This document shows positions 59,715 through 64,000 of a stretch of 64,000 nucleotides of DNA, piece after piece. The stretch lies in NCBI GenBank assembly GCA_902610315.1, contig CACLVA010000002.1, positions 62,001-126,000 of the forward strand, read 5' to 3'. A program made the position numbers and the translations under genes. The notes beneath the pieces are model-generated. The model saw only the letters and a list, made by a program, of their open reading frames with translations, ran no database searches and was not told the DNA's origin. Positions within the stretch are counted from its first letter, which is position 1, and each line of letters opens with the position of its first letter. The DNA is from an uncultured Pelagibacteraceae bacterium. GTDB lineage: Bacteria; Pseudomonadota; Alphaproteobacteria; Pelagibacterales; Pelagibacteraceae.

Positions 59715-59767
59715 AAAAAAAACCCCTGTTTCTCTGCACTTTTTACGGTGCAAAGAACAGTAGTTTT
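59715..59767 (-). terminator. Long hairpin with T8 tail ending the candidate RNA
   Basis: On the minus strand AAAACTACTGTTCTTTGCAC pairs with GTGCAGAGAAACAGGGGTTTT around the loop CGTAAAAA, with one C-A mismatch, one bulged base and one A-G mismatch, then T8 at 59722-59715. This is a strong intrinsic-terminator shape. It ends one base before the ogt start codon, so it either ends an upstream RNA or attenuates ogt. Confidence 0.6.
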
Positions 59768-59905
59768 GGCACGTCGTTGTATGCGCTACCGCCATGCCTT
59801 CCGCCTTACGATTTTAGCGCTACTCCGTAAGACTTTCTGCCCCCTGGGCTTGGTCCTCTCGGCCTTTCCCCAGTCGGCCAGTTAAGGGTTGCCCCTTAAT
59901 TAATT
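59715..59905 (-). ncRNA. Candidate structured RNA upstream of ogt, class unknown
   Basis: A G+C-rich island (69 of 120 bases at 59761-59880, against an A+T-rich genome). Read on the minus strand it folds well: TTAAGGG-GCAA-CCCTTAA (GNRA loop), CTGGG/CCCAG enclosing GGCC-GAGA-GGACC (GNRA loop with a bulged A), CTTACG/CGTAAG, GGCA/TGCC, then a long terminal hairpin and T8. I checked by eye and found no match to tmRNA, RNase P, 6S, SRP or common riboswitches. It could be an independent small RNA or a regulatory leader of ogt. A 57-codon plus-strand frame over the same bases is discounted. Confidence 0.55.
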
Positions 59906-60014
59906 AAACTTAACAAATAATAATGGTTGTATGTATCACTTTTTGATTGATTTAAGGGTCCTATGTGGATTGTGTTAATAACTTTTGTTATTGACAAAGT
60001 ATTTTTAATAATAT

Positions 60015-60049
60015 ATTACTATTGATAATTAATTGTTATCAATAGTAAT
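60015..60049. repeat. 14-7-14 inverted repeat before the tyrosine recombinase
   Basis: ATTACTATTGATAA (60015-60028) and its exact complement TTATCAATAGTAAT (60036-60049) flank the 7-bp centre TTAATTG. It ends 3 bp before the recombinase ATG, covering the ribosome site. The geometry fits a tyrosine-recombinase core site (two 11-14 bp arms around 6-8 bp) or an operator for autoregulation. The remaining bases 59906-60014 are A+T-rich without other signals. Confidence 0.7.
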
Positions 60050-60052
60050 TAT

Positions 60053-61006
60053 ATGAATGAACTGACAACAGATCTAAAATCGCTTCATGAGGCAACTTTA
60101 AATAACCTCAAAAATTCTAAATCAAATAACACTTTAAGGGCTTATAAATCAGACTTTAAAGATTTTGCAGCTTTTTGTGCTAAGCATGGTTTAAACTCAT
60201 TGCCATCAGAACCTAAAATTGTTTCTTTATACCTTACTCATCTTTCTAAAAATTCAAAAATCAGCACTTTAAGAAGAAGATTAGTCTCAATTAGCATGGT
60301 GCATAAACTAAAAGGTCATTATTTAGATACAAAACATCCAATCATTATTGAAAACTTAATGGGAATAAGAAGGGTAAAAGGAAGTATTCAAAAAGGTAAA
60401 AAACCTATATTAATCAATCATTTACGATCTATAATTAATGTAATAAATGTACAAAAAATTGAGGATATTAAGAAGTTTAGAGACAAATCAATTATATTAG
60501 TTGGCTTTGGAGGTGGATTTAGACGAACTGAATTAATTTCAATCGATCATGAAGATTTGGAATTTGTACCTGAGGGTCTTAAAATTACAATTAAAAGATC
60601 AAAAACTGATCAATTCGGTGAAGGGATGATTAAAGGTCTACCCTACTTCACTAATGAAACTTATTGTCCGATTGTCAATCTTAAAAAATGGCTAGAAATT
60701 TCTAAAATTAAATCTGGACCTATTTTTAGAAGATTTTCTAAAGGTTTATCTCTAACAGAAAAAAGATTAACCGACCAATCTGTAGTTTTATTAATGAAAG
60801 AATATTTAAATTTAGCAGGTATTGAAAATAAAAATTTTGCAGGTCATAGTTTAAGATCTGGTTTTGCAACTGTTGCAGCAGAATCTGGTGCTGATGAACG
60901 TAGTATTATGGCAATGACTGGTCATAAAACAACTCAAATGGTAAGAAGATATATTAAAGAAGCCAATATATTTAAGAATAACGCTTTAAATAAACTAAAG
61001 ATTTAA
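60053..61006 (+). CDS. Tyrosine recombinase / integrase
   Basis: Site-specific recombinase, 317 residues. N-terminal SAM-like core-binding domain (about 5-100) and C-terminal catalytic domain with all active residues: Arg in GFRRTELIS, Lys in IKRSKTDQFGEG, HSLRSG (His-x-x-Arg), His in MTGHKTTQM and Tyr in VRRYIKEA. It matches a widespread alphaproteobacterial integrase group. No phage, tRNA or cassette array is joined to it. It is convergent with the methyltransferase gene (4-bp overlap). It is 25 kb from the tRNA-Lys element and shares no visible core with it. Confidence 0.92.
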   Translation: MNELTTDLKSLHEATLNNLKNSKSNNTLRAYKSDFKDFAAFCAKHGLNSLPSEPKIVSLYLTHLSKNSKISTLRRRLVSISMVHKLKGHYLDTKHPIIIENLMGIRRVKGSIQKGKKPILINHLRSIINVINVQKIEDIKKFRDKSIILVGFGGGFRRTELISIDHEDLEFVPEGLKITIKRSKTDQFGEGMIKGLPYFTNETYCPIVNLKKWLEISKIKSGPIFRRFSKGLSLTEKRLTDQSVVLLMKEYLNLAGIENKNFAGHSLRSGFATVAAESGADERSIMAMTGHKTTQMVRRYIKEANIFKNNALNKLKI

Positions 61007-61683
61007 ATCTTATTTAGTGTATCTTCATAGTCCAAAATATTCATAAATTCTTTATAATTATAGTAATAGTCTTTAAATTTTAATTTACTAAAATCATTAA
61101 TATCCAATTTTAACAGTTTTTTATTTTCTGAAATTTGTATTATAGCAACACCAAAATCTATTTGAGATGTAAATATATTAAGATTATTTTTAGTTCTTAA
61201 TTCAACAATAGCTTTCCACACATCACCATTCCATGATGCTCTATATCTTGGCACAGCTTGTTGAGCTAAAGATCTAGGCAAACAATCATGAACTAATATA
61301 AAACCATTTTTGTTTAATATTTTAAGAGAATTGTTTATATCTTTAAGGACTTGTGAATAAAGATGAAGACCATCTATAAAGATAATGTCAAAATTATTTT
61401 TGTTTTGTTCAAAGAATTCATCGCTAGTTGATCTGATAGTGCCACCTTCAATAGGATCAACTCCTATTTTATTATCAATTTTAATTTTAGAGAATGATTG
61501 GTTTTTATCGCATCCAATTTCTAAATAATCCTTGAAATTATATTTATCGATAATATACTGTATTAAATCCCATCTATATATATTTGGTGGAAATTCTAAT
61601 TTTAATTTTTTGTCAAATCTTTCAACAAATAAAAAATAATAAATTCGATTAAATAACATTTTTATAATATTTAATTTTTCCAT
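61003..61683 (-). CDS. Class I SAM-dependent methyltransferase (Methyltransf_24-like)
   Basis: 226 residues. The fold is indicated by DYLEIGCDKNQSFSKIKI (SAM loop), IGVDPIEGGTIR, FDIIFIDGLHLYSQVLKDI and KNGFILVHDCLPRS, the D-G-x-H pattern of the Methyltransf_24 group common in polysaccharide clusters. Substrate unknown. It is the last gene of the hom-linked glycosyltransferase run on the minus strand. Confidence 0.82.
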   Translation of the reverse strand: MEKLNIIKMLFNRIYYFLFVERFDKKLKLEFPPNIYRWDLIQYIIDKYNFKDYLEIGCDKNQSFSKIKIDNKIGVDPIEGGTIRSTSDEFFEQNKNNFDIIFIDGLHLYSQVLKDINNSLKILNKNGFILVHDCLPRSLAQQAVPRYRASWNGDVWKAIVELRTKNNLNIFTSQIDFGVAIIQISENKKLLKLDINDFSKLKFKDYYYNYKEFMNILDYEDTLNKI

Positions 61684-61688
61684 AAGCT

Positions 61689-62570
61689 TTAGTATAAAAA
61701 TATATAAAGTTTTGAAATGTACAAAATTATAGATAAAATACGCAATAAGTTTTTAAAAGATTTATTAAATTTAAATTTTATAATATTAATAAAAAATCTT
61801 TGAAAATAATCAAAAAAATTAACAAGTATTTTTTTATTTAACTTAAAAAAATTAGTTTTTTTTTTATAATATATATATTCAGAAATCTTATGTATTATTG
61901 ATAATTTACAGTTTTGTAAAAAAGAGTTATCTGCAGACAAACCTTGTAAATGTATCATTTTTGACTCCGGTATTTCTATAATTGACTTATTCTTTTCAAC
62001 AGTTTTGTCACATAAATCATTATCTTCAAAATACATAAATAAATCTTTGTCAAAACCACCTATTTCATCAAAAAATTCTTTTTTGATTAAAAGAGCACAA
62101 CCTACTGCAAATTGGTAACAAGTATTACCCTCAGCTTTTTGATTATTTAAAATATTTTTCTTATTTATCTTTTCTCTATTAATATAGGAAAGACTGCCAT
62201 TACTTCTTCTGTTATTACTATTATCGTATAACGCAGGAGCTAAAATTCCGATATTCTCATAACTAAAATATGACTTGTACAAAATTTCAATAGAGGCACT
62301 GTTAACCAAAATATCTGGATTTAAAATAAGAATGAATGGCGTTTTACTCTCTGATACACCTAAATTATTACCCTTTCCGTATCCTAAATTCTTTTTTGTT
62401 TTTATATATTTTATGTTTTTTACTTCCTGCACTAGTGAACGAATTTCATCAGACTTTGAATTATCTACAATAATTGTTTTAAATTTACTTATTTCTGATA
62501 AATTTTTTTGGATCAATTTATAACTGTTAAAGCAAACTATTATAAGTGTTATGTCATTATAGATATTCAT
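61689..62570 (-). CDS. Family 2 glycosyltransferase (rhamnosyltransferase-like)
   Basis: 293 residues, GT-A fold. DITLIIVCFNSYKLIQKNL at the start, KNLGYGKGNNLGVSES, the DXD-type motif in LILNPDILVN, and FDKDLFMYFEDNDLCDKT match the rhamnosyltransferase-like GT2 group. SAM or membrane domains are absent apart from a hydrophobic C-terminus (ILSIILYISKLYIFLY). It overlaps the upstream glycosyltransferase by 4 bp. Confidence 0.88.
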   Translation of the reverse strand: MNIYNDITLIIVCFNSYKLIQKNLSEISKFKTIIVDNSKSDEIRSLVQEVKNIKYIKTKKNLGYGKGNNLGVSESKTPFILILNPDILVNSASIEILYKSYFSYENIGILAPALYDNSNNRRSNGSLSYINREKINKKNILNNQKAEGNTCYQFAVGCALLIKKEFFDEIGGFDKDLFMYFEDNDLCDKTVEKNKSIIEIPESKMIHLQGLSADNSFLQNCKLSIIHKISEYIYYKKKTNFFKLNKKILVNFFDYFQRFFINIIKFKFNKSFKNLLRILSIILYISKLYIFLY

Positions 62571-63574
62571 TTGTTATTAAACAACTTTATCCACTTTTTT
62601 TTTATCTTATTAAAATGATATTTTTTTGAACTCTTAATTGAATTATTTATGTATTTATTTTTATTAGCCATGTTTTTGTTTATTAATTCTAAGATTTTAA
62701 ATGATAAAGATTTATAATCTTTCACGATAAAACCATTATAATTATTCTTAATTATATCTTTCAATACAGTTTCGCCAAAAGTTATAACAGGTAAACCACA
62801 TGCATTAGCTTCTATGGCGTTAAGACAAAAAGTTTCATCATATCCAAGACATATCATGCCTAAAGATGTTTTGTATGCTCTTTTTAATTTATCTTTTTTA
62901 ACCCTTCCTAAAAAAATTATATTATATTTTTTGTAATAATTTTTTAATTTTTTAAATTTGCTTTTATCAATGCCAAAAATAAATAATTTAGTTTTTTTAT
63001 TTTTGGGATAAATATAATTTACCCATGCATCTAAGGTCTCTTTTAAGCCCTTTTCTCTCTGTACAGACCATATAAAATTATTTTTTCTTTTATAATTATA
63101 TTTTTCATTAATAAATTTATTTGACAAGAAGTTAGGTATAATAATCTTTTTATTAAAAAAATATAAATTTGATGTCTTTCTTTCAAGATATTTACTTACA
63201 AAAACTGCGGTTATCTTATTTTTTATAATTGATAATAATTTTTTTTTTCTTAAAGCTTTTTCTATAGCTAAAGTATTATGCATCCATAATATTTTTTTTG
63301 AATCTTTAAATAAATTAAAAATATTAGGATCATTTGAACTTACTACATAGTTAAATTTAAAATTATGTTTCTCTTTCTTTAATTTAGATATTGGAAGATT
63401 TGTTAAATTTTTTCTTTTAATGACTTTTTTACATACGGTCGAAAGATAAATATTATGATCTTTTGATGAAAGATTATTGCATAGTTCCAAGTTGAGTGTT
63501 TCTATACCACCTAACTTGCTATTATTTATTGAATTTAAATCAAATTTTGTTGGACAGTGGAATAATATATTCAT
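62567..63574 (-). CDS. Family 4 glycosyltransferase
   Basis: About 335 residues, GT-B fold. FNLFKDSKKILWMHNTLAIE region, then NNFIWSVQREKGLKETLDAW and the GT4 donor-site motif around DETFCLNAIEANACGLPVIT (EX7E type). GGIETLNLELCN near the N-terminus is typical of GT4 proteins. The ATG at 63574 overlaps the hom stop by one base (TGATG), so it is translationally coupled to hom; the frame opens one codon earlier with TTG. Confidence 0.86.
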   Translation of the reverse strand: MNILFHCPTKFDLNSINNSKLGGIETLNLELCNNLSSKDHNIYLSTVCKKVIKRKNLTNLPISKLKKEKHNFKFNYVVSSNDPNIFNLFKDSKKILWMHNTLAIEKALRKKKLLSIIKNKITAVFVSKYLERKTSNLYFFNKKIIIPNFLSNKFINEKYNYKRKNNFIWSVQREKGLKETLDAWVNYIYPKNKKTKLFIFGIDKSKFKKLKNYYKKYNIIFLGRVKKDKLKRAYKTSLGMICLGYDETFCLNAIEANACGLPVITFGETVLKDIIKNNYNGFIVKDYKSLSFKILELINKNMANKNKYINNSIKSSKKYHFNKIKKKWIKLFNNK

Positions 63575-64000
63575 CAATTAAAAAGTCTTAATAACACAGG
63601 CCTCTTAAGAATCTTTTTGTTTTTTTTTAATGATTTTAGACAATTATCTGAATTAAGTTGTTTAGTTTTATGAGTAATAATCACTATAGATGCAGTTTTA
63701 AGTTTATTGTCAGGTATTTGTATCATTCTTTGAATGGATATGTGATTTTTTGCTAAACTTTTTGTTATTTCAGAAAGTACACCAGGTTTGTCTTTAACCT
63801 CAAATCTTAGGTAAAGAGAATTTTCGTAGTTATTTATATTAAATGGAGATATAAATTTTCTTTTATCACTAGAAGCTCCTAATGGATTTTTAATATTTCC
63901 TCTTAAGATAGAAAGAAGATCTGACATTAAAGCAGATGATGTGGGTCCGGGTCCAGCACCCTCCCCTTGTAATATGCTTTCACCTACAGGTTTACCTTCT
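63574..64000 (-). CDS. hom: Homoserine dehydrogenase, C-terminal part (partial)
   Basis: Reduces aspartate semialdehyde to homoserine for Met/Thr synthesis. The gene continues beyond the window edge; the visible 142 residues include GEGAGPGPTSSALMSDLL, a hallmark of the end of the catalytic domain, and an ACT domain (LYLRFEVKDKPGVLSEITKS, ISIQRMIQIP) for feedback control. The expected hom-glpX-recJ order is broken here: hom faces the other way and is followed by glycosyltransferases. Confidence 0.93.
   Translation of the reverse strand, partial: EGKPVGESILQGEGAGPGPTSSALMSDLLSILRGNIKNPLGASSDKRKFISPFNINNYENSLYLRFEVKDKPGVLSEITKSLAKNHISIQRMIQIPDNKLKTASIVIITHKTKQLNSDNCLKSLKKNKKILKRPVLLRLFN

Follow-up and report, generated by a model that had tools for sequence, protein, structure and literature searches.

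The window, by which we mean the whole 64,000-nucleotide stretch of DNA that was analysed, comes from an uncultured Pelagibacteraceae bacterium and contains a tyrosine recombinase gene preceded by a perfect inverted repeat with 14-bp arms and a 7-bp centre (Table 1). The 35-bp palindrome ends 3 bp 5′ of the recombinase ATG (60053). We confirmed this arrangement, which a preliminary description had reported with exact coordinates and had read as the enzyme's own recombination site, one end of an inversion switch or an operator. No other perfect inverted repeat in the window has arms of at least 14 bp and a gap of 0–20 bp; ten Markov-1 simulations of the window produced one such repeat in total and none with a 7-bp gap. 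A search with the site pattern at up to three mismatches returned one match in the window, compared to 0.00 expected. The assembly is 89% complete and contains a single copy of the exact paired arms. Lone arms with no more than one mismatch were found at 19 places in the assembly, counting the site's own two arms, compared to 17 for the reversed control. As lone arms are at chance level, no second site was seen in the assembly, and the second arm copies for which the preliminary description had proposed a genome-wide search did not materialise in this 89%-complete sequence.

Table 1. Features of the palindrome–recombinase locus, in window coordinates
Feature	Position	Strand	Remarks
−35-like box, TTGACA	59991..59996	+	in upstream consensus of 126 class I loci
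Putative −10-like hexamer, TATTAC, overlapping left arm	60014..60019	+	17 bp after TTGACA; columns conserved
dif/lox-like site, class I arms	60015..60049	.	left arm ATTACTATTGATAA, 60015–60028; core TTAATTG, 60029–60035; right arm TTATCAATAGTAAT, 60036–60049
Tyrosine recombinase, 317 aa	60053..61006	+	PF00589, 4.3e-18; only PF00589 match in assembly
12-residue segment, codons 226–237	60728..60763	+	in SAR11 orthologues, present with class I sites and absent with class II
Codon 242 (Gln)	60776..60778	+	aligns with Cre R259; Lys in class II

The recombinase scored above the Pfam cut-offs for PF00589 and PF02899. Its likely catalytic residues, assigned by motif, are R157/R158, H265, R268, H291 and Y300, all of which are invariant across eight diverse orthologues. 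The P. ubique gene of the same kind bears the annotation xerD; by the curated NCBIfam cut-offs, the window recombinase is not a member of the XerC, XerD, XerS or XerA equivalogs. The best of these scores was obtained with the XerD model (73.1 bits vs a cut-off of 329.6), with 64 bits vs 335 for XerC and 47 bits vs 267 for XerS. The solved chains closest by sequence were XerA, XerD and Cre, and the solved XerH chain was a weak match (2.8e-6). An AlphaFold2 model built from 19 close sequences had a pLDDT of 41.

The TTGACA–TATTAC pair upstream of the gene was not among the matches of a generic promoter scan. An IMES-2 RNA (RF02035, 159.6 bits) is present on the minus strand at 59766–59906, about 110 bp before the site, and IMES-2 was found within about 1 kb of the recombinase in nine of 11 related loci. 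IMES-2 as a component of the system was not supported, as it was found in four of 12 genomes searched and was adjacent in two. Directly 3′ of the recombinase, at 61003–63577, are a methyltransferase frame and frames that by eye are glycosyltransferase-like. Across 53 related loci we counted 13 gene families downstream compared to four upstream, indicating that the site borders a variable region, which perhaps serves surface polysaccharide.

Conservation of the site and its recombinase

Within the genus the recombinase is present once each in 27 of 37 genomes (own included), and the palindrome lies upstream in all 27. In L039 and L042 the palindrome is further upstream and the open frame starts earlier; in these two loci and in L491 the site is separated from the aligned start by roughly 50 bp or more, with an open frame seemingly reaching toward it, which appears to be an N-terminal extension in one lineage. 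The wider orthologue pool comprised 161 host loci encoding 143 distinct proteins, and the site precedes every one of the 143. Of these sites, 126 have TTACTANNGATAA-type arms (class I) and 17 have TTCCGATAA arms (class II). A regular expression caught the site in 141 cases (126 class I and 15 class II); it needed more flank and missed the class II sites of L481 and L218, which were read by eye. In 100 of these 141 loci the gap between site and aligned start measures 3 bp, and 130 of the 141 distinct loci have TTAATTG or TTAATGG as their core. The preliminary description had made its reading depend on conservation of the palindrome upstream of orthologous recombinases. The outcome, 143 of 143, did not refute it. 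The proposal that the palindrome is the enzyme's own recombination site with lox-type geometry is strongly supported.

A census was carried out with the pattern GATAATTAATNGTTATC having A or T eight bases out on each side. The pattern was present in 216 of 296 genomes of the order, in a single copy in every one, and was found neither in the reversed control nor in any of 18 sister-family genomes. One site per chromosome, as in Xer/dif systems, was thus seen in all 216 pattern-bearing genomes and in the window's own assembly. The recombinase matched 244 of the 296 genomes, 16 of them being weak sister-family matches. This leaves 228 of 278 family genomes with a match, as would be expected of the conserved chromosomal tyrosine recombinase of an Xer/dif system, and all 11 single-contig family genomes of the census are included. 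Twelve gene-bearing genomes gave no pattern match. The gene is cut at a contig end in G326, and the other 11 all show the site, nine with an altered core (TTTATTG, TTATTTG, TTAAAGG, TTTATGG or TTAATGA) and two (L478 and L481) with the usual core and a different outer base. G197 has a core (CAATTAA; L498, G197:C4:50743-50775) with the opposite orientation to its gene, so that core polarity is not fixed; the inversion is perhaps a trace of recombination. Both arm classes were found within genera g1, g6 and g10 among the matches listed. At G287:C4 66195-67141 we observed a recombinase homologue with many stops, either a degraded gene or the product of poor assembly; the genome itself still has the core pattern once.

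No recombinase match was obtained in 50 of the 278 family genomes. We looked for PF00589 proteins of any kind in 19 of these with a completeness of at least 90%, and 16 had none, including one that is 99% complete, indicating that either terminus-region contigs are missing or the system was lost in some lineages. Among the 37 genus genomes, 25 have the recombinase as their only PF00589 protein, nine have none, G028 and G036 have an extra, longer match, and G010 has only a different PF00589 protein. Eight of the 11 closed genomes have one PF00589 match, with further ones in frames of 345–450 aa in G113, G079 and G291. In 24 genomes of the sister family, the number of PF00589 proteins is two in 18, one in five and three in one. 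The two proteins of the one sister-family genome examined are XerC- and XerD-like over their full length; the XerC/D subfamily model was above cut-off for one of the pair and the equivalog cut-offs were narrowly missed.

Position of the site on the chromosome

The cumulative GC-skew maximum is at 620 kb in G012, where the site is at 617.6 kb, and at 990 kb in G292, where the site is at about 998.85 kb. The skew minimum is near ftsK in both genomes (1275 vs 1274 kb in G012 and 305 vs 323 kb in G292, i.e. within about 20 kb). These curves are noisy and were drawn from sampled stretches covering about 60% of G012 and 30% of G292. The site is 0.455–0.500 of the chromosome away from ftsK in all 11 closed genomes, which are all related and in nine of which ftsK serves only as an origin proxy. 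Thus, the skew maxima in two genomes and the distance from ftsK in 11 of 11 place the site at the terminus, where an Xer/dif system would have it. The FtsK gamma domain, also characteristic of such systems, was found in eight of eight genomes and in 14 of 14 genomes, with G012 in both sets. A dif reading was absent from the proposals of the preliminary description; terminus position and single copy point to dif.

Relation between arm class and recombinase sequence

Every one of the 123 full-length class I proteins carries the 12-residue segment and Gln242, and the 17 class II proteins are all without the segment and carry Lys at 242. L480, a divergent class I protein and the sole addition from among three that did not count as full length, has both the segment and Gln, and groups weakly with the class II proteins (support 0.59). 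The co-variation of protein and arms reflects few independent events, since the 123 class I proteins fall into a single clade (support 0.96) and L480 alone stands outside it. The segment as the sole determinant of arm class was rejected, because the virus proteins L290 and L317 have it together with class II-like arms.

Position 242 of the window recombinase aligns with Cre R259, which, according to the cited portion of PMC7438526, contacts a loxP guanine and helps to set specificity. Relatives paired with the TCCGATAA arm have Lys or Arg at this position in 16 of 16 aligned proteins, a count that takes in relatives with a nearby site. Fourteen of the 16 come from viral contigs, several of which are near-identical; the other two are L525 and L541, each with one imperfect arm. 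L529 has a TCCGATAA palindrome too, but was dropped from the alignment. Since the viral contigs were retrieved by arm, the arm was fixed by selection and residue 242 was not. Arms of the TCCGATAA type are also present in SloxP. In relatives with other arms, position 242 is G (L384 and L418), D (L527), T (L528) or H (L540). The protein–site pairs of L317 and L272 are 0.4 and 1.9 kb apart. Residue 242 fits arm class better than the 12-residue segment, and provides a testable rule for arm recognition.

Relatives and comparison with known systems

Outside the family, relatives of the recombinase are scattered in Alphaproteobacteria and are common on plasmids, with identity of up to 43%. A GATAA-N6/7-TTATC palindrome lies close to the start of the frame in three of eight alphaproteobacterial relatives (L527, L528 and L529); a similar palindrome in L525 has a damaged arm, and no palindrome of this kind was seen in the other four. 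Among nine plasmid relatives, the palindrome near the start is clear in L540 and nearly so in L541, with the others within the control range. L536 and L537 have a class II-like palindrome about 0.9 and 1.2 kb upstream. By descent, the enzyme looks like a Cre/plasmid-type recombinase carrying its own site that took over the XerCD role.

The 14-7-14 palindrome has the geometry of an Xer/dif site, i.e. about 28–35 bp with inverted arms and a 6–8-bp centre. The sections of PMC9765430 on XerL/dif of Legionellales present a close parallel, in which an overlooked single recombinase was found in a group thought to be without dif/Xer. By description, its site also has long uninterrupted inverted-repeat arms and is at the terminus; however, the L. 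pneumophila gene and site are more than 400 kb apart (PMC9765430), whereas here they abut. The same source describes XerS/difSL of streptococci and XerH/difH of Helicobacter and Campylobacter as one recombinase with a site near the gene, as here, but its account of these dif sites makes them only partly symmetric (PMC9765430). XerCD/dif shares the role, the terminus position and FtsK gamma with the system proposed here, as well as the ATAA...TTAT inner arm pattern that can be seen in a table of PMC2731167, but here there is one enzyme, a near-symmetric site and a 7-bp centre. Single enzymes with a palindromic site near the gene, as found here, are also typical of Cre/loxP and of SCre/SloxP, VCre/VloxP, Vika/vox, Nigri/nox, Panto/pox in the descriptions drawn on (PMC4957104, PMC7438526). 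Unlike these Cre-like systems, the one described here is chromosomal, family-wide and terminus-located, and its 14-7-14 site differs from the 34-bp, 13-8-13 loxP site with its 8-bp centre.

Copies of the site in viral contigs

IMG/VR was scanned with class I and class II arms around any 7-bp centre, yielding at least 120 stretches each; the control for the class II arms, a palindrome of unchanged composition made by shuffling them, gave three matches. Class I and class II sites lie within 40 bp of each other in 50 of 253 viral contigs scanned (≤4 and 3 mismatches). With ≤3 and 2 mismatches and duplicates removed, 182 viral contigs had a site among the matches listed. The neighbours of the viral sites include the small and large terminase subunits, and in 118 of the 126 site-bearing contigs with a recognised large terminase gene the site is within 1 kb of that gene. 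The site is outside called frames in 122 of 159 contigs with a GC content of ≤0.40. HTVC106P is the nearest isolate for one contig group (85% large-terminase identity), and a second terminase type is closest to HTVC027P (71%). Arms, GC content and terminase similarity suggest that the site-bearing low-GC contigs are probably from SAR11 phages. A small ORF of about 60 aa (L127 3848-4033 and homologues) adjoins the viral site in 109 of the 159 contigs, before the large terminase gene, and two members tested gave no PHROG match.

Among the viral sites, 4 of the 92 in class I and 12 of the 128 in class II have a centre identical to a host core, counts that include contigs first found with the host core; nine of the 120 stretches listed in the class II free-centre scan had previously been found with it. 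A relatedness search for virus-encoded close relatives of the recombinase found none among 123 candidate stretches. A purpose-built HMM identified recombinase-like frames in 18 of the 253 viral contigs, and all recombinase-bearing contigs but L290 and L317 have a GC content of at least 0.50. In 14 of 16 strong matches the site is ≤20 nt before or ≤180 nt after the start of the open frame. No recombinase-like frame was found in the 142 low-GC contigs in which the site is within 1 kb of the large terminase gene, 42 of which have both classes together; as these stretches are short (median 7.3 kb), the phages may encode a recombinase elsewhere.

Isolated phages have at best degenerate sites. No intact site (≤2 mismatches) was found in the terminase regions taken from 13 phage records, of which 11 belong to Pelagibacter phages; only these regions were covered, and some records start close to them. 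At ≤4 mismatches there were four class II matches compared to a control mean of 0.2, whereas class I at ≤6 mismatches showed no signal (4 vs 2.55 in the control). By eye, HTVC106P has a class II-like site one base short together with class I fragments.

Interpretation of the site and its viral copies

On comparative grounds it is close to certain that the palindrome is the cognate recombination site of the recombinase, and very likely that it is dif. We consider it highly probable that Pelagibacteraceae have an Xer/dif system with a single recombinase, in which the palindrome is dif and the adjacent gene encodes that one enzyme. From the sequence comparisons we infer a mechanism in which four recombinase monomers would bind both copies of dif in a chromosome dimer and synapse them at the terminus, with FtsK probably in control. 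Y300 would cut each strand beside the 7-bp core, and exchange of the identical cores would convert the dimer into two monomers. The bound recombinase would probably also repress its own promoter, which overlaps the left arm.

A site that abuts the start codon, at 3 bp in most loci, and follows a conserved TTGACA at promoter spacing could instead be an operator only, with the recombinase or a different dimeric regulator binding there and so controlling the promoter of the recombinase gene. An operator requires neither a conserved 7-bp core nor a terminus position, and virus sites with the same arms adjoin terminase genes in stretches of 142 contigs devoid of recombinase-like frames, making this explanation very unlikely. 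The operator proposed in the preliminary description may hold as a side effect, given the TTGACA and the −10-like hexamer overlapping the left arm, but leaves the terminus position and the conserved core unexplained. The recombinase matches phage integrase families and plasmid recombinases and adjoins a region with 13 downstream gene families in the 53 loci, which would suit a mobile integrase gained recently along with its att site, or else a switch that works by DNA inversion. We regard this as exceedingly improbable, as the gene occurs in many genera of the family with one copy, one site and a constant relative chromosome position. An inversion or excision switch was rejected, as was the inversion-switch end of the preliminary description, because there is no second site in the assembly and one site in each of the 216 genomes. 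A domesticated plasmid-type cassette could also sit at the terminus for another task, such as decatenation or the resolution of plasmid or phage DNA, dimer resolution then being a secondary function. The closest relatives outside the family are indeed plasmid recombinases (≤43% identity), and a few plasmid and alphaproteobacterial relatives have GATAA-type palindromes. However, a single terminus site together with FtsK gamma is the signature of dimer resolution, and we consider this alternative unlikely.

The viral sites, which adjoin terminase genes, are often in tandem, mostly have non-host centres and are without a recombinase in the low-GC stretches covered, suggest hijacking of the host Xer system, with use of the host enzyme. 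Cre-lox circularises or monomerises phage DNA for P1. Our tentative proposal, which may well be wrong, is that SAR11 swapped XerCD for a cassette of plasmid or phage type, made up of a Cre-like recombinase and its site, which exists in two specificity classes that each occur within several genera. The tandem both-class sites of recombinase-less pelagiphages beside terminase genes, mostly with non-host cores, would then let either host enzyme recombine phage with phage (circularising or monomerising) without chromosome entry. Phages that integrate via XerC/XerD are known, as instanced in the cited part of PMC7858055, and the viral sites could be ordinary attP, with phages integrating at host dif via the host enzyme (IMEX-like). 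The arms match host dif, some viral sites have the exact host core, and the 142 low-GC terminase-adjacent stretches are without a recombinase-like frame, all consistent with attP. Nevertheless, most cores are non-host (host-identical in 4/92 class I and 12/128 class II), none of the 296 genomes has two sites and no prophage flanked by dif copies was seen, so that we think integration at dif rather doubtful. The viral sites would represent a new point of phage–host contact in SAR11, the most abundant marine bacteria.

The relevant part of a 2009 survey lists P. ubique as being without a dif/Xer system (PMC2731167). Contrary to that survey, the data say that Pelagibacteraceae have a dif/Xer-type system, of a different make, and the dif site could serve as a marker for the replication terminus in SAR11. 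Among the matches listed in open-licence PMC literature, we recognised no description of a SAR11/Pelagibacter dif/Xer system or of a pelagiphage dif site. We take SAR11_1019 to be the orthologue of the window recombinase and the sole PF00589 protein of G292. Its expression is touched on in two studies: P. ubique xerD is up-regulated in light together with recA in the results cited from PMC3090418, and entries of a sulfur-depletion table include SAR11_1019 xerD (8.50, 7.63) and recA (7.31, 3.11) (PMC5069961).
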